In this document: positions 10,020-60,282 of the stretch, piece after piece
Position numbering within the stretch: the stretch's first letter is position 1
Layout: each line of letters begins with the position of its first letter
NCBI GenBank assembly: GCA_902570695.1
Contig: CACFZE010000005.1
Span: forward strand, 1-64,000
DNA from: an uncultured Pelagibacteraceae bacterium
Lineage (GTDB): Bacteria > Pseudomonadota > Alphaproteobacteria > Pelagibacterales > Pelagibacteraceae
DNA: 64,000 nucleotides
Direction: 5' to 3'
Position numbers and translations under genes: made by a program
Notes under the pieces: model-generated
What the model saw: the letters and a program-made list of their open reading frames with translations, nothing else
What the model was told of the DNA's origin: nothing
The model's database searches: none

Positions 10020-11418
10020 TTTCTTGTTTGTATAATATTTTATTCTTTAGGCTATCAATGCTTAAATTTAATTCATTATCTTCTTTTCTTAATTTTTCTA
10101 TTGTTTTAACTGAATGTATAACGGTTGTGTGATCTCTATTAGCAAATGATCGACCTATCTCTGGTAAAGATTTAGATGTTAGCATTTTTGCTAAATAAAT
10201 AGCAGTTTGTCTTGGCCTTACAAGATATCTTGACCTTCTTGGTGACAACATTTCGTTTTTACTTATTTTAAAATATTTACATACTATTGTTTGAATATTA
10301 TCTATATCAACTTTATTTTCGGTTAAATTTAATAGATCTTTTAATATTACTTTTACCTCTGACATTGAAGGTGTTTTTCCATAAATTCTTGAGAAAGATA
10401 CTACTCTATTAAATGCACCTACAAGCTCCCTGATACTAGTATTAACTTCAGTGCTAATAAATTTTATGATCTCGTCACTGATCTTATTATTATTTGGATC
10501 ATGAATTGAAAGATCTTCGTTTTTAGATTTTATTATATTGTATCTTAATTCAAAATCAGCATTTTGGATATCAACTACCAGTCCTCCTGAAAATCTAGAT
10601 TTAATTCTTTCTTGTATTCTAGTTAATTTGTTAGGTGGTCTATCTGCTGATACTATAATTTGTGATCCTTTCTCTAACAAAACATTAAATGTGTGGAAAA
10701 ATTCTTCTTGCATAGCTTCTTTTCCATTCATAAATTGAATATCATCAATCAAAAATATGTCAGTATTTCTAAAATACTCTTTAAACTTTACCATATCATT
10801 AGATTTTATCGATTTTACAAATTGATACATAAATCTTTCAGCTGAAATAAACATTACTTTATTTTTTTCTTTCAAACTTAATCCAATTGCATTTAACAAA
10901 TGTGTCTTACCCATACCAACTCCACCATAAATATATAGAGGATTATAATGAGCTATTTGTTCTGAAACTTTTTTTGCAGCTTCAAAAGCTAGTTTATTAC
11001 TTTTCCCAAGCAAGAAATTCTCAAAGTTTTTATTTGGATCAATTCGATTATATTGAAGATATGAGTCTTTAATAAATGAAACCTTTTCATTATCAGATGA
11101 ATTATCTGGTTTTATTTCATCAGTATTTTTGTTCTTTATATTCTCGTTAATCACAAATTCTATTCTGGAAATATCTTTTTTATATAATTTAATTATTTGT
11201 AATATTTGATCTAAATATCTTGAAGTTATCCAGTCTCTGATAAATCTTGTCGAAACGGATAATAAAACATAATTTTTAAACTCATCAACCAAATCAATTT
11301 TTTTTAACCAACTATCATAAATCTCGGAACCAAACTTATTTTTCATTTCATTTTGTAATAATTTCCAATCAATCTTATTAATATTGTCTGATTTAATGTT
11401 AGTGAGATTATTTTTCAT
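10009..11418 (-). CDS. dnaA: chromosomal replication initiator DnaA
   Basis: DnaA is an AAA+ ATPase that opens the origin. Its 469 residues comprise an N-terminal oligomerisation domain, a linker, the AAA+ domain with Walker A GGVGMGKTHLL (near 164) and Walker B IFLIDDIQF, and the C-terminal DNA-binding domain. The DnaA signature SLPEIGRSFANRDHTTVIHS lies near 420. The spacer before dnaA (244 bp) could carry the promoter and possibly origin elements, but I see no consensus DnaA boxes there. dnaN follows in the same operon. Confidence 0.98.
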   Translation of the reverse strand: MKNNLTNIKSDNINKIDWKLLQNEMKNKFGSEIYDSWLKKIDLVDEFKNYVLLSVSTRFIRDWITSRYLDQILQIIKLYKKDISRIEFVINENIKNKNTDEIKPDNSSDNEKVSFIKDSYLQYNRIDPNKNFENFLLGKSNKLAFEAAKKVSEQIAHYNPLYIYGGVGMGKTHLLNAIGLSLKEKNKVMFISAERFMYQFVKSIKSNDMVKFKEYFRNTDIFLIDDIQFMNGKEAMQEEFFHTFNVLLEKGSQIIVSADRPPNKLTRIQERIKSRFSGGLVVDIQNADFELRYNIIKSKNEDLSIHDPNNNKISDEIIKFISTEVNTSIRELVGAFNRVVSFSRIYGKTPSMSEVKVILKDLLNLTENKVDIDNIQTIVCKYFKISKNEMLSPRRSRYLVRPRQTAIYLAKMLTSKSLPEIGRSFANRDHTTVIHSVKTIEKLRKEDNELNLSIDSLKNKILYKQENEI

Positions 11419-52692: not shown

Positions 52693-53817
52693 ATGGCAAA
52701 AAGAGACTATTACGAAGTTTTAGGTGTAAACAAAAGCGCTTCAGCAGACCAAATCAAATCGGCTTACAGAAAACTCGCAGTAAAATATCACCCAGATAAA
52801 AATAAAGGTGATAAAGCTGCCGAGGAAAAATTTAAGGAAGCATCTGAAGCTTATCATGTACTTTCCAATTCAGAGAGAAAACAAAATTACGATAATTTTG
52901 GTCATGCTGCTTTTGAAAATGGAGGTGGTGGAAGAGGTGGATTTGGAAATTTCGATTTTTCAAATCATTTCTCCGATATTTTTGAAGACTTTTTTGGAGA
53001 GGGTTTTGGAGGAGGCCGTAGATCAAGAAGGTCAAATAATAGAGGATCAGATTTAAGATATGATTTATCAATTTCTTTGGAAGAGGCCTTTTCTGGAAAG
53101 AAACAAGATATTAAATTTTCTACATCTGAAAAATGTAATACTTGTAGTGGGTCGGGTTCAAAACCTGGTCATCAAGCTGGAGTATGCTCGATGTGTGGTG
53201 GTCATGGTCAAGTAAGATCAAGCCAAGGTTTTTTTACAGTTCAACAAACATGTCCTCAATGCGCTGGAGCAGGAGAGGAAATCACTCATCCTTGCTCTAT
53301 TTGTAATGGACAAGGTAAACAACAAGCTTCAAAAAGATTATCTGTTACTATCCCAAAAGGCGTGGATGATGGAACTAGAATTAGACTTTCAGGAAAAGGT
53401 GAGGCTGGATCAAGAGGCAGTAGTAGTGGTGATTTATACTTGTTCATAAATGTTCATTCTCATGAGTTATTTAAAAGATCCGATGAAAATTTATTTTTCG
53501 AATGTCCAGTCTCTATTGCAGATGCTGCTTTAGGTACTTCAATTGAAATTCCAACAATCGACGGTGGTAAAGCTAAAATTAAGATTCCCGCTGGAACACA
53601 AAGCGGTAAGCAATTTAGACTAAGAGGCAAAGGAATGCCTTATATGAGGGGTAATGATTTTGGTGACTTATATGTTCAGGTAAATACGGAAGTTCCAGTA
53701 TCATTAAATAAAGAGCAAAAAGAATTACTTGAAAAATTCAGAGAAATTGAAAACGAAAAATCTAACCCAAGCATAAAAAAATTCTTTCAAAAAGCTAAAA
53801 GTTTCTGGAAAAACTAA
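52693..53817 (+). CDS. dnaJ: co-chaperone DnaJ (Hsp40)
   Basis: DnaJ stimulates DnaK ATP hydrolysis. The J domain has HPD in [10 protein letters not shown], then a glycine/phenylalanine region, and four zinc repeats [24 protein letters not shown] and CSICNGQG. The protein has 374 residues and is a complete type I DnaJ. dapB follows after 27 bp. Confidence 0.98.
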
Positions 53818-53844
53818 TCAATAGTGCTAATCTAAAAGGCTATA

Positions 53845-54621
53845 ATGGGTAAAATTAATCTAGCCATAACAGGATGTATGGGAAGAATGGGTCAACAGCT
53901 CATTAAATCTGCCATTAAAGATAAATCTACCAGATTGGTTGCTCTAACAGAAAATAGAACGATTAATAAGAAAATCAGTGGAATAAAACCTGAATTAAAT
54001 ACTGAAAAAGCTCTTGTTAAAGCGAATGTAATAATAGATTTCACAATTCCAAAATGTACATTCGAGGTTTTAAATATAGCCACAAAGTTAAAGAAGAAAG
54101 TGGTTATTGGCACAACAGGTTTTACAAAAAAAGAGGAAGATTTAATAAAGAAGTTTTCAAAAAAAATCCCGATTTTAAAAGCAGGAAATATGAGCCTTGG
54201 AATTAATTTACTCATGTACTTGACAGAGATTACATCGGCATCACTTGGAAGCAATTATTTAAGTAAAGTTTTTGAGGTTCATCACAGACATAAAAAAGAT
54301 CATCCATCAGGTACAGCTTTAATGCTTGGAAAGGGAATTGCTGTAGGAAAAAATAAAGACTTTTATAAAATGATAGGAAGAAAATATTTAAACAAAAAAA
54401 ATTTTCCTTACGGAAAAAAAATTAATTTTAATTCAATAAGGAAAGGTGAGATTATTGGTGAACATGAAGTTACTTTTTCAAGTGGAAAAGAAATAATTAC
54501 ACTGAACCACGAGGCTTTTGACAGAGCTTTATATTCAGATGGAGCAATAACTGCTGCAAAATGGTTATTTAATAAAAAACCAGGCCTTTATTCGATGAGA
54601 AATCTTTTGAATTTTAAATAA
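53845..54621 (+). CDS. dapB: 4-hydroxy-tetrahydrodipicolinate reductase
   Basis: DapB reduces the cyclic precursor of diaminopimelate and lysine. The dinucleotide-binding motif is AITGCMGRMGQQL, and the catalytic region is EVHHRHKKDHPSGTA. The protein has 258 residues. A DnaKJ-dapB order is known in alphaproteobacteria. Its final base is the first base of the nth start. lysA in this window acts later in the same pathway. Confidence 0.96.
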   Translation: MGKINLAITGCMGRMGQQLIKSAIKDKSTRLVALTENRTINKKISGIKPELNTEKALVKANVIIDFTIPKCTFEVLNIATKLKKKVVIGTTGFTKKEEDLIKKFSKKIPILKAGNMSLGINLLMYLTEITSASLGSNYLSKVFEVHHRHKKDHPSGTALMLGKGIAVGKNKDFYKMIGRKYLNKKNFPYGKKINFNSIRKGEIIGEHEVTFSSGKEIITLNHEAFDRALYSDGAITAAKWLFNKKPGLYSMRNLLNFK

Positions 54622-55274
54622 TGAATGAAGTTCAAAGGGCTAAAATAGTTTTAAGAATACTTAATAAAACCTATCCAACAACACCTATACCCTTAAAACA
54701 CAGAAATATATTCACTCTTTTAATATCTGTTTTACTTTCGGCTCAATGTACAGATGTAAATGTAAATAATGTCACAAAAAATATTTATCCAAAATTCAAT
54801 AAACCTAAGCATTTCGTTAAGCTTGGTAGAAAAAAAATAGAAAAATTAATAAGAAGTATTGGAATTTTTAGAGTAAAGGCAAAGAGCATTTATAATTTGT
54901 CAAAGACGTTAGTCAAAAAATATAATGGCAGGGTTCCAAAAACATTTAAGGAGTTAGAGGAGCTGCCTGGGGTGGGACACAAAACAGCAAGTGTAGTTAT
55001 GTCCCAAGGTTTTGGATATCCTGCATTTCCAATAGATACTCATATACATAGACTTGCTCAACGTTGGGGTTTAACTAATGGAAAAAATGTTGTTCAAACA
55101 GAGGAAGATTTAAAGCGTTTATTCCCAAAAAAATATTGGAACAAACTCCATCTTCAAATAATTTATTACGGTAGGGAATATTGTAAAGCGAGAGAATGTT
55201 ACGGTATTTCTTGTATAATTTGTACTTCTTGTTATCCTAATAGAAAAAAACCAATTAAAACAAAAAAAGCTTAA
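54621..55274 (+). CDS. nth: endonuclease III (DNA glycosylase/AP lyase)
   Basis: Nth removes oxidised pyrimidines. The helix-hairpin-helix and catalytic lysine are in LPGVGHKTASVVM, and the catalytic aspartate is in FPIDTHIHRL. The C-terminal iron-sulfur loop is unusual: cysteines follow C-x4-C-x4-C-x2-C-x2-C where the textbook spacing is C-x6-C-x2-C-x5-C. Overall span is the same, so a cluster may still form. The protein has 217 residues. Confidence 0.93.
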   Translation: MNEVQRAKIVLRILNKTYPTTPIPLKHRNIFTLLISVLLSAQCTDVNVNNVTKNIYPKFNKPKHFVKLGRKKIEKLIRSIGIFRVKAKSIYNLSKTLVKKYNGRVPKTFKELEELPGVGHKTASVVMSQGFGYPAFPIDTHIHRLAQRWGLTNGKNVVQTEEDLKRLFPKKYWNKLHLQIIYYGREYCKARECYGISCIICTSCYPNRKKPIKTKKA

Positions 55275-55275
55275 A

Positions 55276-56205
55276 ATGAAAATTCTAGGAATTGGAAACG
55301 CAATTGTAGATGTTATTTGCAAAGTTGAAGAAGGTTTTATCGAACAAAATAATTTAACTAAAGGCACCATGAAGCTTATTTTTGATGAACAGGAATTTAA
55401 GAATATGTTATCTAATCTTAGAATTGAAAAAACTATATCAGGAGGATCGGTAGCAAATTCTATTGTAGGATTATCTCAACTTGGTAATAAAGTTGGTTTT
55501 ATCGGCAAGGTAAGTGATGACGAACTAGGAAGTAAATATGAAGATGGTTTAAAATCAGAGAATGTTGAATATTTTTATTCAAAGAAGAAAGAAGAATTAC
55601 CAACAGGAACTTGTTTAATTTTAGTAACCCCGGACTCAGAAAGAACCATGTGTACTTATCTTGGAACAGCAGGAAAAATAAATGCGAATGATATAAATGC
55701 CGATGTGGTAAAACGATCAGAGATTATTTTTTTAGAAGGATATTTGTGGGACGAAGGAGAGCCAAAAAAAGCATTTGAAAAAGCAATTAATAGTGCGAAT
55801 AAAGTTGCAATGTCACTATCAGATCAATTCTGTGTGGACAGGCACAAACCACACTTTTTGGAATTAGTGAAAAACAAATTAGATATTACATTCGCTAACG
55901 AACAAGAAATGATGTCATTAATAGATGCCAAAGATTTTAAAGATGTTATTGATTTTGGAAAAAGTTTAAAAAAATTTGTTGTTATTACAAGAGGAGAAAA
56001 AGGAGCTATATCAATAAATGGTGATGAAATTATTGAAAATGGAATTGAAGATAATTTAAATATTAAAGATCTTACAGGAGCTGGAGATTTATTTGCTGCA
56101 GGTTTTTTACATGGAAATTTAAATAATTTAAGTACATCTGAGAGTCTTAATAAAGGGCGAGAAATGTCGTCGAAAGTTATTCAGCAAATAGGTGCTAGAC
56201 TTTAG
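55276..56205 (+). CDS. PfkB-family carbohydrate/nucleoside kinase
   Basis: This 309-residue ribokinase-fold enzyme has SGGSVANSIVGLSQLG near residue 55 and the anion-hole signature DLTGAGDLFAAGFLHG with the catalytic aspartate near residue 267. The N-terminal ILGIGNAIVDVIC resembles adenosine-kinase-like members common in alphaproteobacteria. The substrate is not certain. It is one base after nth and overlaps the convergent arfA-like gene by 11 bp. Confidence 0.88.
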   Translation: MKILGIGNAIVDVICKVEEGFIEQNNLTKGTMKLIFDEQEFKNMLSNLRIEKTISGGSVANSIVGLSQLGNKVGFIGKVSDDELGSKYEDGLKSENVEYFYSKKKEELPTGTCLILVTPDSERTMCTYLGTAGKINANDINADVVKRSEIIFLEGYLWDEGEPKKAFEKAINSANKVAMSLSDQFCVDRHKPHFLELVKNKLDITFANEQEMMSLIDAKDFKDVIDFGKSLKKFVVITRGEKGAISINGDEIIENGIEDNLNIKDLTGAGDLFAAGFLHGNLNNLSTSESLNKGREMSSKVIQQIGARL

Positions 56206-56311
56206 TCTTTTTTCTGCTGTAACTTCCTTTACCTTTTTTAGGCTTTACAATTCTTTGTTTGAATTTTTTTGAAAATAAATCTTTGGCAAGTTTATTTTTT
56301 TTTTTTCTCAA
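56195..56311 (-). CDS. arfA: ArfA-like alternative ribosome-rescue factor (38 residues, TTG start)
   Basis: The frame starts at TTG 56311-56309, directly after an in-frame stop, and ends at TAG 56197-56195. The core LFSKKFKQRIVKPKKGKGSY is followed by SRKKTKV. This matches the conserved ArfA segment (LFRQRV..KKGKGSY.RK in Escherichia coli), which binds the empty mRNA channel and recruits release factor 2 to stalled ribosomes. The start overlaps the stop of the upstream regulator as TTGA, so it is likely translationally coupled. A run of 12 A's lies after the second codon, so the reading depends on its exact length. The 3' end overlaps the PfkB gene. Confidence 0.72.
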   Translation of the reverse strand: MRKKKNKLAKDLFSKKFKQRIVKPKKGKGSYSRKKTKV

Positions 56312-56868
56312 TTAATCTTGTACCCTTTTTTTGAACTTTTAATAAAATTATTATCCCCAAAAGCTTTTAAAATTTTCTTTCTTAATCTATAAACATGCGT
56401 TTCTACAGTATGTGTTTCTAATTTAGACTTATGTCCCCAAACGTTAATTTGCAAATCGTTAATAGATATTGGAATATCTGAATTATTCAAAAAAATTATT
56501 ATATCAGTCTCCTTTTCAGTCAAAGGTAGAGTTTTAAACTGATGTTTCATAATTCTAGAGTTTAAATTGATAGAGTATTTATCAATTTTAATATTATTTT
56601 GCTGATAGTATTTATTTTTCAAAAATTGAATATTTATTAAATCAATTAATTTAAATAAATTAATAGGATAATTATTTATTTGAATATGATTATCAATTTT
56701 CATTTTTTTTTCAGTAGAGATAACTAAGCCTCCTTTTTTTAAGTATTTGTTATCTATTTTTCCACTGTTAATTGATTTTATATTAAAATTTAAAATATCT
56801 TTAACTTCGTTTAAAATATTGAATAGTACTGGAAAATTATAGACAATAAGAAAATGACTTTTAAACAT
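56308..56868 (-). CDS. OmpR-type winged-helix regulator with degenerate receiver
   Basis: The C-terminal part (about residues 110-186) is a clear OmpR/PhoB-type winged helix: PLTEKETDIIIFLNN, HTVETHVYRLRKKI and SSKKGYKIN. The N-terminal part has receiver-like length, but I see no acidic pocket or phosphoacceptor aspartate; the expected site reads KKGGLVISTEKK. It may act without phosphorylation. From ATG 56868 it has 186 residues. It is divergent from the YkuD gene (12 bp) and coupled to the arfA-like gene. Confidence 0.78.
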   Translation of the reverse strand: MFKSHFLIVYNFPVLFNILNEVKDILNFNIKSINSGKIDNKYLKKGGLVISTEKKMKIDNHIQINNYPINLFKLIDLINIQFLKNKYYQQNNIKIDKYSINLNSRIMKHQFKTLPLTEKETDIIIFLNNSDIPISINDLQINVWGHKSKLETHTVETHVYRLRKKILKAFGDNNFIKSSKKGYKIN

Positions 56869-56880
56869 TATCAATAGAAT

Positions 56881-57375
56881 ATGACAATATATGTTAAAAA
56901 TAAAGATACTTTAATATATGACGATTTTATATTTAAATGTTGTGTAGGAAGAAATGGTTTTACATACAATAAATTAGAGGGTGATAAAAAAACACCAATT
57001 GGCTTATTTTCTCTGGATAGAATATATTTTAGAGAAGATAGAAAAAAAAAACCTCAAACAAAATTAAATTTGAAATCTATTACAAAAAATATGGGTTGGT
57101 GTAATGACGTCAGTTCAAAAACAAAATATAATAAACCTATATCTTTAAATTTAAAACTTAAATATGAAAAATTATATAGACACGATTATAAATATGATTT
57201 TGTATTACCAATAAAATATAATTGGAATAAAAGACAGCTAGGTAAGGGTAGTGCGATTTTCATACATTTAACTAAAAATTTTAAACCGACAGCGGGTTGT
57301 ATAGGTCTTTTAGAAAAAGATTTTTTAATATTAATTAAAATAATAAAAAAAAATACTAAAATTAAAATTCTTTAA
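56881..57375 (+). CDS. YkuD-type L,D-transpeptidase-like protein without signal peptide
   Basis: This 164-residue protein has the YkuD catalytic motif HLTKNFKPTAGCIGL, with the histidine and the nucleophilic cysteine, preceded by KGSAIFI. EGDKKTPIGLFSL is the N-terminal family hallmark. L,D-transpeptidases crosslink peptidoglycan or attach lipoproteins, but this one has no evident signal peptide. A similar short group without export signal is widespread in alphaproteobacteria as I recall it. It overlaps yggS at the 3' end by 4 bp. Confidence 0.83.
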   Translation: MTIYVKNKDTLIYDDFIFKCCVGRNGFTYNKLEGDKKTPIGLFSLDRIYFREDRKKKPQTKLNLKSITKNMGWCNDVSSKTKYNKPISLNLKLKYEKLYRHDYKYDFVLPIKYNWNKRQLGKGSAIFIHLTKNFKPTAGCIGLLEKDFLILIKIIKKNTKIKIL

Positions 57376-58022
57376 TTTCTATTGCCAAAAATATTTGAAC
57401 CAATTCTAATCTGTGTAGATCCATTTTCAATTGCATTTATATAATCAGAAGACATACCCATACTTAATTCGTTTAAATTTAATTTTTTATTTAATTCTTG
57501 CAGTTCCTTAAAATATTTTTCACTTGGCTCATCTAGTGGAGGAATGCACATTAGACCAATTATATTTAATTCAAGATTTTTGCAATAATTATAAAAGTCT
57601 AATAATTCATTTTTATCAACACCGGACTTTTGTTTCTCGTTGCCTATATTTACTTGTATAAATATTTTTAACTTTTTATTTAATTCTTTTTCTTGAATAG
57701 CAATTTTATTCGCTAATTTAATACTATCTAAAGAGTGAATATAATCAAATAATTTTACTGCAATTTTAACTTTGTTAGATTGTAGCCCACCAATTAAGTG
57801 TAAACTTACATTTTTAACTTTTTTTATTTCGTGCCATTTTTCATTTGCTTCTTGGACTTTGTTTTCCCCGTAATCTTTATGTCCATATTCAATCAAATGC
57901 TTAATATGATCCAATTTAAAGGTTTTTGATACTGCAATAATTTTAGGTTTTCGGACATTATTTGGGAACTTAGACTTTATATTTTCTTCAATTTTGAGTA
58001 AGTTTTTTATTGTTTCATGCAT
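57372..58022 (-). CDS. yggS: YggS-family PLP homeostasis protein
   Basis: YggS-type proteins bind PLP and balance vitamin B6 and amino-acid pools. The PLP lysine is in KIIAVSKTFKLDH; FIQVNIGNEKQKSGV and LSMGMSSDYINAIENGST follow. The protein has 216 residues, normal for the family. Its start codon lies within ATGCAT, which also starts the divergent ThiE-like gene. Confidence 0.94.
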   Translation of the reverse strand: MHETIKNLLKIEENIKSKFPNNVRKPKIIAVSKTFKLDHIKHLIEYGHKDYGENKVQEANEKWHEIKKVKNVSLHLIGGLQSNKVKIAVKLFDYIHSLDSIKLANKIAIQEKELNKKLKIFIQVNIGNEKQKSGVDKNELLDFYNYCKNLELNIIGLMCIPPLDEPSEKYFKELQELNKKLNLNELSMGMSSDYINAIENGSTQIRIGSNIFGNRN

Positions 58023-58544
58023 AAATTCATTCCAAATAAATTTTATTTTATAAATAGTTTTAAAAAAAATTACATTGATAAATTAGATAATAATACTGCT
58101 ATAATTTATAGGAACTATAATAACAGGGTCAATTTAAAAGAAATAATAAAGATTAAAGATTATTGTCTAAAAAAGAAAATTAAATTTATTATATCTAACA
58201 ATTTTCGTCTTTCCTTAAGATTAAATCTAGATGGCGCTTATATTCCATCCTATAATAGTAGTTTTGCTCATTTAAGCTATAAAACGAAAACTAATTTTTT
58301 AATTTTAGGATCGGCACATAATATTAAAGAAATACGACAAAAAGAGAGGCAAGGTGTGGATTTTATTTTTATTTCTTCAATTTTTAAAAATAACAAAAAT
58401 TATCTTGGTGTTAACAAATTTAGAATACTTAGTTCTTTAAGTAAAAAAAATGTAATAGCTCTTGGAGGAATTAATAAATCAAATATTAAGAGATTGGGGT
58501 TAATTAATTGTTACGGTTTCAGTGGTATTTCTTATTTTCAATAA
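58017..58544 (+). CDS. ThiE/TenI-like thiamine-phosphate synthase family protein
   Basis: This 175-residue protein resembles the ThiE/TenI fold: FLILGSAHNIKEIRQ, GVDFIFISSIFKNNKN and VIALGGINKSNIKRL follow the order of the family core. It is shorter than typical ThiE (about 200 residues), and the TxTK-like stretch is not clear, so enzymatic activity is uncertain. Neighbouring yggS is a frequent partner in alphaproteobacteria. It overlaps the yggS start by six bases. Confidence 0.65.
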   Translation: MHKFIPNKFYFINSFKKNYIDKLDNNTAIIYRNYNNRVNLKEIIKIKDYCLKKKIKFIISNNFRLSLRLNLDGAYIPSYNSSFAHLSYKTKTNFLILGSAHNIKEIRQKERQGVDFIFISSIFKNNKNYLGVNKFRILSSLSKKNVIALGGINKSNIKRLGLINCYGFSGISYFQ

Positions 58545-58572
58545 AAAAAAGGCCCCTATAAAAGGGGCCCTT
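58543..58572 (-). terminator. intrinsic terminator of the porin gene (possibly bidirectional)
   Basis: GGCCCC (58551-58556) pairs with GGGGCC (58564-58569) around a 7-nt A/T loop, and the minus strand then runs into a T tract. It lies 24 bp beyond the porin stop. On the plus strand it follows the ThiE-like gene by only a few bases, with a weaker T run, so it may serve both. It is the most G/C-rich hairpin in the window. Confidence 0.85.
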
Positions 58573-58595
58573 CTTTATAATATTTAGTTCCTCAA

Positions 58596-59528
58596 TTAAA
58601 ATGCAAATGATACTGATACTTCGTATCCAGTTCTGTCATCTGTTGAAGTGTTAGCAATGTTATCTACTGAGTGGTATGATCCACTAATTGACATAGATCC
58701 CATTGTATATGCTATACCGATTGCAGCAGCTTCTTGGTCATCACCAGAGTTGTACTCTGTAGTGTGTTGTCCGTAAGAAACTGAAAGATCATCATTGACT
58801 TGGTATGAAATACCTAAACCAGTTGTATCTCTCTCAGTAGTTCCAGATTCTGGATCAAACTCAGATGATTGTACACCAACAGTTAATCCGCCCATTGCAT
58901 ATGTTGCATACATTGTGCTTTCATCTGACTCTACAGCTGTGTCATGTACAGTACCTGCACCATAACCAACTTCTAAACCATCAACACCTGTGTATACAAG
59001 TGAAAAGTCGTTGTATGATTCTACTGAAGTTGCAGCAGCTGCATTATGATAAGCTAAAGCTACAGATAAACCTGACTCATGAGCATATGTATACTTGAAC
59101 ATATTGTTTTCAGCGTCACCATTAACAACAGCAGCAGATGCTCCTGTTACAACAGCCCATGGCTCTTCGTAAGCTGCTGGCATTTTATCATCAATTGCGC
59201 TTAATGCAGATGATCCACCATGACCAGCGAATACTAAAGTACCAGCGTCACCTAGATCAAATGTAATTGAATGATCATCAAGTCCACCTGTGTTTTCTGC
59301 ACCATCCATCTCGTATGATAGAGTAACACCGATATCATTAACATCACCTGATGCAGTGAAAGTAACAGAGTCACCCATTGACCAACCGTTACCAGTTGTT
59401 TTATTGTCGTCACCACCACCGAATGTGATAGACGCACCACCAGTTACAGAAAGATCTGCTGCACTTACTGAACCAGCTACTAGGGTACTAGCAAGTGCTG
59501 TTAACCCTATTTTTGTTAGTTTGTTCAT
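58596..59528 (-). CDS. outer-membrane porin
   Basis: This 310-residue beta-barrel porin starts MNKLTKIGLTALASTLVAGS with a signal peptide cleaved near SVSAA. The body alternates polar and hydrophobic residues, is acidic and rich in D, G, S, T and Y, and ends in SVSFAF with the terminal phenylalanine needed for outer-membrane insertion. A good AAAGGAG Shine-Dalgarno precedes ATG 59528. Composition differs from its lysine- and asparagine-rich neighbours, as expected for an abundant surface protein. Its specificity is unknown. Confidence 0.88.
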   Translation of the reverse strand: MNKLTKIGLTALASTLVAGSVSAADLSVTGGASITFGGGDDNKTTGNGWSMGDSVTFTASGDVNDIGVTLSYEMDGAENTGGLDDHSITFDLGDAGTLVFAGHGGSSALSAIDDKMPAAYEEPWAVVTGASAAVVNGDAENNMFKYTYAHESGLSVALAYHNAAAATSVESYNDFSLVYTGVDGLEVGYGAGTVHDTAVESDESTMYATYAMGGLTVGVQSSEFDPESGTTERDTTGLGISYQVNDDLSVSYGQHTTEYNSGDDQEAAAIGIAYTMGSMSISGSYHSVDNIANTSTDDRTGYEVSVSFAF

Positions 59529-59547
59529 ATTTAATACTCCTTTATGT

Positions 59548-59565
59548 TTTAATATTAATATTAAA
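59548..59565. promoter_or_regulatory. 18-bp perfect palindrome in the porin leader region
   Basis: TTTAATATTAATATTAAA is its own reverse complement and lies 20-37 bp upstream of the porin start. With no G or C it is a poor RNA hairpin, so a DNA-binding protein or chance in A/T-rich sequence are the two readings. The remaining gap up to the DUF3576 gene (59566-59730) shows nothing else I can name. Confidence 0.35.
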
Positions 59566-59730
59566 CATGACACTTCTATCAAAAAAGACAGTAAATTCTG
59601 AATATTTGAAGGAATTATATCAATTTAATGAAAGAGTGTTGCAATTTTACATCACAAAAAAGTCCAATAAAATGAGCATTATTAGAATATTTTATATTAT
59701 ATATTGATAAAATTAAATATTAATGAATTT

Positions 59731-60282
59731 ATGATAGTTCAAAAATACCTAAAATCTTTTTATATTTTACTTCTAAGTTTGTTGATTCTAACAGCATGCA
59801 ACCCAGGAGATGCAAGAAAAATTCCACCTAACGCTAAAGACAGAGTGCAAAAAAATATGGAAGAAGGAAGAGGATTTAGACTTATGGATAATGTTGGAAA
59901 GGGGCAAAGTGGAACTTTTGATTTTGCTAGTTCTAACGAATTGTGGAGAGCATCTCTCGATACTCTAGATTTTATGCCTCTAGCGCTTGCCAATTATAGT
60001 GGGGGTATCATTGTAACAGATTGGTACAGTGATGGTAGTTCAAAAAATGAGTCAGTGAAAATTTCAATAAGATTCTTAAGTAATGATGTAAGATCTGATG
60101 CTTTAACAATAAAAGTTTTTTATAAAAATTGCTCGATGAACAATAACTGTAAAGTAGTAGATAAATCAGCTGAATTATCAAATGAATTGAAAAAAAAGAT
60201 TTTGTCTAAAGCAGCGATTTATGAAAAATTAGCCAAGACCAAAAATAAAAAAAAATATATTAACAAAGCTCTCGAAGATTAA
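59731..60282 (+). CDS. DUF3576 lipoprotein
   Basis: This 183-residue lipoprotein has lipobox LTAC (near residue 23) after a signal helix (YILLLSLLILTAC). The rest (LWRASLDTLDFMPLALANYSGG, IVTDWYS) matches DUF3576, found before leuS in many alphaproteobacteria. Its function is unknown, but the leuS-lptE context points to the envelope. I use ATG 59731; a TTG 27 bases earlier is in frame. leuS follows after 16 bp. Confidence 0.82.
   Translation: MIVQKYLKSFYILLLSLLILTACNPGDARKIPPNAKDRVQKNMEEGRGFRLMDNVGKGQSGTFDFASSNELWRASLDTLDFMPLALANYSGGIIVTDWYSDGSSKNESVKISIRFLSNDVRSDALTIKVFYKNCSMNNNCKVVDKSAELSNELKKKILSKAAIYEKLAKTKNKKKYINKALED

Follow-up and report, generated by a model that had tools for sequence, protein, structure and literature searches.

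A very probable ribosome-rescue gene at a short SAR11 locus

Few cells in the sea are as abundant as those of SAR11 bacteria, whose genomes are strongly reduced. In a 64,000-nucleotide stretch of DNA from an uncultured Pelagibacteraceae bacterium (contig CACFZE010000005.1; hereafter the window), a frame of only 38 codons lies between a regulator gene and a kinase gene, and it raises the question of whether so short a frame encodes a ribosome-rescue factor of the ArfA type and, if so, whether that factor is under the control of tmRNA as in Escherichia coli. The reading that we consider very probable is a minimal ArfA that recruits and activates release factor 2 (RF2), is made ready for use, is coupled to the regulator and is free of the tmRNA hold.

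The frame occupies positions 56195 to 56311 on the minus strand, starts with TTG, ends with TAG and translates into the 38 residues MRKKKNKLAKDLFSKKFKQRIVKPKKGKGSYSRKKTKV. Because an in-frame TAA stands immediately 5' of the TTG, this is the sole usual start codon ahead of the conserved Asn-6. The gene upstream (56308-56874, minus strand) ends in a TGA that has the letters TTGA in common with this TTG, a 4-nt overlap, and the 3' end of arfA lies 11 bp within a convergent gene for a PfkB-family kinase (55276-56205, plus strand; PF00294, 146 bits), whose product is up to 92% identical to PfkB of named Pelagibacteraceae records and marks the window as SAR11. An earlier note on this DNA had described a 38-residue frame that starts at TTG, overlaps the TGA of an OmpR-like gene and ends inside the PfkB gene, and all of its coordinates were as stated when re-read. 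An Rfam search of 53000-60000 gave three matches, each under its gathering score and none near arfA. As a side observation, only the C-terminal OmpR-type DNA-binding domain of the upstream product exceeded its Pfam cut-off (Trans_reg_C, PF00486, 41 bits, residues 115-186); none of the family models reached its cut-off with the N-terminal part, which may be a receiver that has decayed.

Identity as ArfA and selection on the frame

The Pfam model of ArfA (PF03889) scored the window peptide at 31.5 bits, above its curated cut-off of 25.5, and no further Pfam family matched at E <= 1, DUF7230 (PF23876) included; the NCBIfam models gave no match to the peptide. The GGQ peptidyl-hydrolase domain, the hallmark of ArfB, was absent from the 38 residues in the Pfam search. 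Across 14 control genomes searched with PF03889 at E <= 0.01, E. coli alone matched, and in the window's own genome the arfA locus was the single place reported at E <= 10. A profile (A1) built on 25 SAR11 peptides from among the highest-scoring PF03889 matches found six distinct ArfA-named chains in the PDB (E 1e-7 to 3e-7), and the three alignments viewed were all ungapped. Residues N, F/Y, R/K and V/I and the basic stretch KKGKGS[YF].R are shared in register with E. coli ArfA (YhdL), and this basic stretch is present in the window peptide. The KPKKGKGSY codons of the window (56219-56245, minus strand) correspond, by the ungapped profile match to the PDB chains, to the part of E. coli ArfA placed in the empty mRNA channel (role described in the accessible part of PMC5378476). 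The close match to the ArfA core claimed in the earlier note is therefore borne out by the Pfam score, by the PDB matches and by the genome counts given below; a search with the ArfA Pfam model was also the check that it had proposed.

Selection on the frame was assessed in 140 SAR11 loci, a set that includes some genomes twice and in which the core is open by construction of the search pattern. The ratio pN/pS was 0.24 (118 distinct 28-codon cores) and 0.33 after removal of the eight PKKGKGS[FY] codons, whose constancy in loci L105-L184 is likewise by construction because those loci were found through this motif. Variation was highest at third codon positions (0.44, versus 0.20 and 0.14 at the other two), and the two other forward frames contained stops in 136 and in all 140 of the loci. 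A chance lysine-rich frame without protein function might be suspected in an AT-rich genome with abundant AAA codons, given that the frame has only 38 codons and that the antisense frame across the core is also open in 86 of the 140 loci; however, the Pfam cut-off is passed, the third position is the most variable, pN/pS is low and the other forward frames hold stops, which leaves this explanation hardly credible.

Distribution and synteny

At E <= 0.01, PF03889 matched 282 of 397 genomes of the order, over cut-off in 168 of these, and 115 of the 151 genomes that were at least 90% complete. The A1 profile matched 306 of the 397, of which 281 at E <= 4.8e-8 and 25 weakly (E 2.5e-5 to 0.0098). 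A scan of named genomes yielded at least 426 confirmed relatives, from which the 80 titled Pelagibacteraceae, Pelagibacterales or Pelagibacter were retained. The regulator upstream and pfkB convergent downstream were both present at 77 of these 80 loci; at the other three, one neighbor was absent and the contig broke off on that side, 39-58 nt from arfA. The frame thus recurs in other SAR11 genomes behind the same regulator, which is where the earlier note had proposed to look for it. Taken separately, pfkB was the convergent neighbor at 79 of the 80 loci; in 72 of these its end lay at most 60 nt from the stop of arfA, and in seven the distance was 609-1340 nt. Five further arfA genomes had their pfkB locus read, and in two of them (G001 and G032) arfA lay about 1.5-2 kb from pfkB and did not adjoin it.

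In a sample of 288 alphaproteobacterial genomes, eight had a PF03889 match at E <= 0.01, including two from SAR11. Four of the six non-SAR11 matches were over cut-off, and two of those four came from genomes with 7% and 10% contamination. ArfA-like peptides were observed in a few non-SAR11 alphaproteobacterial genomes (L032-L036), of which those of L034-L036 read like ArfA, for example RRNPVAARLSKSRFKPKTVLARKGKGSYRRR in L035.

In a 2024 survey of 15,259 genomes, arfA was reported in none of 2,376 Alphaproteobacteria, its range being Gammaproteobacteria, some Betaproteobacteria and 10 species of the Bacillus subtilis group (accessible text of PMC11633108), and a review places ArfA in beta- and gammaproteobacteria (PMC8012679, in the part available). 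The survey used DNA profiles, and the accessible portion of its main text does not name Pelagibacter. Set against the matches found here, the count of zero implies that SAR11 was overlooked or unsampled. In our literature search, which covered few subscription journals, the sole report of ArfA for the SAR11 clade among the texts read concerned its phage (PMC12753301, accessible part), and the available texts of PMC11633108, PMC4131195 and PMC2704228 held no ArfA report for the clade; it is possible that SAR11 ArfA was noticed earlier elsewhere, for example in GenBank annotation.

Other rescue systems in SAR11

The comparison of rescue systems covered 42 genomes from the order, of which 20 have canonical arfA and 22 do not. 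An alpha-type tmRNA was found in 41 and SmpB in 41 of the 42, and ArfB over the NCBIfam cut-off in none. All that the ArfB model touched were segments of 33-36 residues within longer frames (310-374 codons). Of the 42 genomes, 39 had two such frames each; in the window's genome both are release factors, namely RF2 (TIGR00020, 446 bits, over cut-off) and RF1. As controls, E. coli and Caulobacter were matched over cut-off, as were 98 of the 288 sampled alphaproteobacterial genomes. Since only those 98 carry ArfB over cut-off, the missing ArfB is not unique to SAR11, and the idea of its absence as a SAR11 peculiarity is weakened; the survey cited above gives ArfB in 2,022 of 2,376 Alphaproteobacteria (PMC11633108, accessible text). 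The presence of ArfA across the Pelagibacteraceae, where ArfB was not seen, alters the known map of ribosome rescue.

Coupling to the regulator and the A-run

The overlap between the arfA start and the regulator stop, pointed out by the earlier note for this locus, recurred in 71 of the 79 loci at which both ends were measurable (out of 81, the 80 named loci and the window), most commonly as 4 nt. The non-overlapping genes were 20-54 nt apart in five loci and more than 1 kb apart in three. Starts were assigned by a rule of thumb, which took the first ATG in the 12 codons ahead of the conserved Asn and, failing this, GTG, TTG or CTG, and in 22 of the 71 the overlap is 20-29 nt, so that a later start is possible there. 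This start/stop geometry supports translational coupling of arfA to the regulator.

The earlier note had also seen a run of 12 A near the start and raised slippage-dependent control. The run is present at 56295-56306 (minus strand), within arfA codons 2-6. Across the 140 loci, the longest A-run near the start varied from 3 to 14 and reached at least 11 in only 28, lysine codons of SAR11 arfA are frequently AAG, and no slippage is needed for the genomic frame to be open. Since the run varies so much in length among loci, slippage is rejected as a general control, and the run is read as lysine coding in an AT-rich genome.

A minimal peptide and its probable activation of RF2

In E. coli ArfA the tail lies in the mRNA tunnel and the N-terminal part activates RF2; the protein truncated at Asn47 is still active, and shorter forms are inactive (accessible part of PMC5378476). 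In E. coli numbering, the last residue of the window peptide falls at position 46, and that of 106 of the 111 SAR11 peptides at 43-49. As 74 of the 111 peptides, the window's among them, end ahead of the equivalent of residue 47, many SAR11 peptides are slightly under the E. coli length limit, a point that counts against the reading as a minimal ArfA and makes us a little less confident of it. E. coli ArfA has 72 residues, the window peptide 38; past Arg-33 its tail comprises five residues, and the hydrophobic C-terminal tail is absent.

The N-terminal part differs as well. Only 4-9 residues precede the conserved Asn in SAR11, compared with 13 in E. coli, and E. coli Ala18, whose replacement by Thr inactivates the protein, corresponds to Lys or Arg in 100 of the 111 SAR11 loci (Lys in the window), with Ala at column 17 in 110; Ala18 was studied in one species and is not treated here as a rule of the ArfA family. 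The basic residue at column 18 and the short N-terminal part together imply that RF2 activation may differ, and they speak against a plain repetition of the E. coli mechanism. A true ArfA homologue with an altered partner or activation, for example one that uses RF1 besides RF2 like Francisella ArfT, would be consistent with these two features. ArfT, compared here by description, has 40 residues with a basic, Gly-containing tail, is encoded by a gene with neither terminator nor RNase III site ahead of the stop and works with RF1 or RF2 (PMC6299226, accessible text); it is described as having evolved independently and has the motif KKGGSTNKK. However, the SAR11 peptide scores as ArfA above the curated cut-off in a genome with an RF2 gene, and we regard a changed partner or activation as a less likely though still serious alternative. 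Bacillus BrfA, also compared by description, is likewise a small rescue factor that recruits RF2, but has an independent origin and is controlled by trans-translation (PMC8012679, in the part available).

Under the preferred reading of a minimal, RF2-recruiting ArfA, the gene would be expressed and active in rescue as follows. When a ribosome has translated a message that lacks a stop codon as far as its 3' end, the basic KPKKGKGSYSRKKTK tail of ArfA would most likely enter the empty mRNA channel; ArfA would then recruit and activate RF2, and the nascent chain would be cut from its tRNA.

Probable independence from tmRNA

In E. coli, RNase III cleaves arfA mRNA or the message ends early, the product of the non-stop message is tagged via tmRNA, and full-length ArfA is unstable, as its hydrophobic tail suggests (accessible part of PMC3989581). 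The E. coli arfA control, with its long hairpin, had a folding z-score of -2.23, compared with a mean of 0.19 over 111 SAR11 loci, four of which were below -2. A conserved internal hairpin of the E. coli type was not found across these 111 loci, and the marks of an E. coli-type tmRNA-controlled locus are lacking in SAR11: the stop is an ordinary one, there is no hydrophobic tail and the mean z-score is near zero, the window itself being at -3.31. The ordinary stop, close to the shortest active length, and the lack of a conserved hairpin imply that tmRNA-dependent control seems absent.

The window's own value, extreme among the 111 loci, belongs to a possible stem-loop spanning the arfA stop (56172-56227, minus strand). 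This stem-loop, as well as the possibility that the convergent overlap with pfkB forms double strand, would be consistent with control as in E. coli, in which the arfA mRNA would be cut or ended ahead of the stop and the resulting non-stop message placed under tmRNA control. However, the relatives inspected fold differently and are without the stem-loop, few of the 111 loci fold strongly, and a cut in the window's stem would fall inside GKGSYS, ahead of the tail that E. coli requires. Such control is therefore improbable here. A role of the stem-loop as pfkB terminator was also considered and found unsupported, a scan of 55900-57100 for terminator-like sites with loops of 3-8 being empty. E. 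coli arfA likewise has a convergent neighbor, mscL, that overlaps its 3' end; the SAR11 gene differs from it in following an OmpR-type gene.

The product of the minimal ArfA gene would instead be probably supplied ready-made and constitutively, in translational coupling to the regulator and unlike the tmRNA-repressed arfA of E. coli, because its message has a normal stop at the equivalent of E. coli residue 46 and neither a conserved internal hairpin nor the codons of a hydrophobic tail. The SAR11 gene would thus separate the textbook tmRNA control from the ArfA protein.

Genomes without canonical arfA

The pfkB locus was read in 21 genomes without canonical arfA. In 18 of them, the regulator ended 0-39 nt past the end of pfkB with arfA absent from the gap; in the other three, a diverged regulator abutted pfkB (the more distant G009), other sequence was present (G180) or no regulator match was found (G004, from another family). 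Because part of Pelagibacter is cleanly without arfA, the gene is not needed everywhere, and its clean presence or absence at one locus provides natural comparisons.

Thirteen of the 25 weak A1 matches were read as sequence, and all were peptides without GKGS, encoded at other loci (for example MSKKRKKLKKKNPMAKLLSSPMLRNKIVKNKKKIYNRKKFKLENE). Genes of this kind, all from Pelagibacterales genomes that lack canonical arfA, were observed in L294-L299, L301-L305, L307-L309 (e.g. L294:1492-1638), L272, L273, L277, L274-L276, L278, L279, L281 and L283. A second profile (A2) was made of 13 such peptides. At E < 1e-10 and away from arfA, it matched 16 of 25 genomes that lack canonical arfA versus 0 of 20 that have it (Fisher p 4e-6), the strong A2 match of G032 being its own canonical arfA; five of the 16 genomes had supplied rows to A2, and without these donors the comparison is 11 of 20 versus 0 of 20 (p 1.5e-4). 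In a quick pfkB tree of 79 rows, canonical arfA needs five changes. Because the tree offers only four independent pairs (sign test, median p 0.5), complementarity between the two genes is not significant once kinship is counted, and it was set aside as a result and kept only as a lead. Neither gene was found in nine of the 25 genomes; pfkB was also unfound in four of these nine, and those four assemblies may therefore miss the region.

Comparison of A1 and A2 by hhalign gave a probability of 96.7% over 31 columns, the A2 rows having themselves originated from the A1 search, and A2 matched PDB ArfA chains at E 0.05 or worse. When nine GKGS-less peptides were compared with DUF7230 (cut-off 27), those of L272 and L277, both of genus g3, scored 27 and 27.8, two others scored 19.9 and 16.8, and five had no match. 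DUF7230 is rare, being found in five of the 288 alphaproteobacterial genomes at E <= 0.01 and over cut-off in three, and the term did not occur in the literature searched. The GKGS-less relatives could help to assign a role to DUF7230, whose function is unknown. The phage families PHROG 20887 and 2701, likewise of unknown function, also match the GKGS-less L272 peptide (E 3e-8 and 3e-5).

The type strain and its phages

The tmRNA of Candidatus Pelagibacter ubique HTCC1062 is placed at 10302-10518 on the plus strand (PMC2704228, accessible text), and genome G011 (one contig, 1.3 Mb) has its tmRNA at 10219-10520 on the same strand; as these positions agree, G011 is probably HTCC1062. In G011 we found no canonical arfA, no GKGS-less relative and no ArfB over cut-off, and the regulator abuts pfkB. 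The absence of arfA from what is probably the type strain may explain why SAR11 ArfA escaped notice.

HTCC1062 is the recorded host of the pelagiphages HTVC027P and HTVC034P, both of which carry ArfA-like genes. Gp63 of HTVC034P scored 25.7 bits with PF03889, barely over cut-off, and gp30 of HTVC027P, named ArfA in PMC12753301 (accessible part), scored 20.2 bits, under cut-off. Rescue-factor annotations are also found on several Brevundimonas phage genes, whose similarity to the window peptide is weak (E 0.08 to 6). On viral contigs, at least 276 stretches encode relatives of the SAR11 profile, of which 80 were kept. In two of these (L251:3929-4309 and L265:1617-2033), an ArfA core over the ArfA cut-off lies within proteins of 126 and 138 residues surrounded by phage-like frames, which suggests that ArfA is carried along with phage late proteins. 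Similar peptides were seen in L205, L241, L252, L253 and L264, and the longer phage proteins end like GGKGGAPGQWSARKAQM..YKKAGGGYK.

SAR11 cores are closer to viral cores (49% over 18 columns) than to that of E. coli (31%), the viral set having been chosen by its likeness to SAR11; about 30 residues are too few to give the direction of transfer between phage and host. This greater nearness to viral cores, the many relatives on viral contigs and the pelagiphage genes would be consistent with a gene that came from phage and is retained for the conflict between phage and host over stalled ribosomes, and not for routine rescue. However, the near-fixed chromosomal place of arfA and its wide distribution in the family suggest long vertical keeping, and phage-host conflict is an improbable function of the gene.

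On the preferred reading, in which a minimal ArfA serves the cell itself, a wider picture can be proposed tentatively. ArfA may be the second rescue route of SAR11, free of tmRNA control, and lineages that lost it, probably including HTCC1062, may use tmRNA alone, a GKGS-less ArfA-like peptide encoded elsewhere, or phage ArfA during infection. The GKGS-less peptide, DUF7230 and some phage families (PHROG 20887 and 2701) might then belong together in a single broader group of minimal release-factor recruiters that has gone unrecognised, common to phages and Alphaproteobacteria and lying inside a late-gene protein in some phages. Possible as it is, we give this picture less weight than its contrary.

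Stop codons of arfA

The stop codons of arfA in the 140 SAR11 loci were TAA in 84, TAG in 54 and TGA in two. TGA is the stop codon read by RF2 alone. It appears to be avoided in arfA, at two of 140 compared with 101 of 703 frames longer than 150 residues in L105-L184 (Fisher p 8e-7, with kinship ignored).
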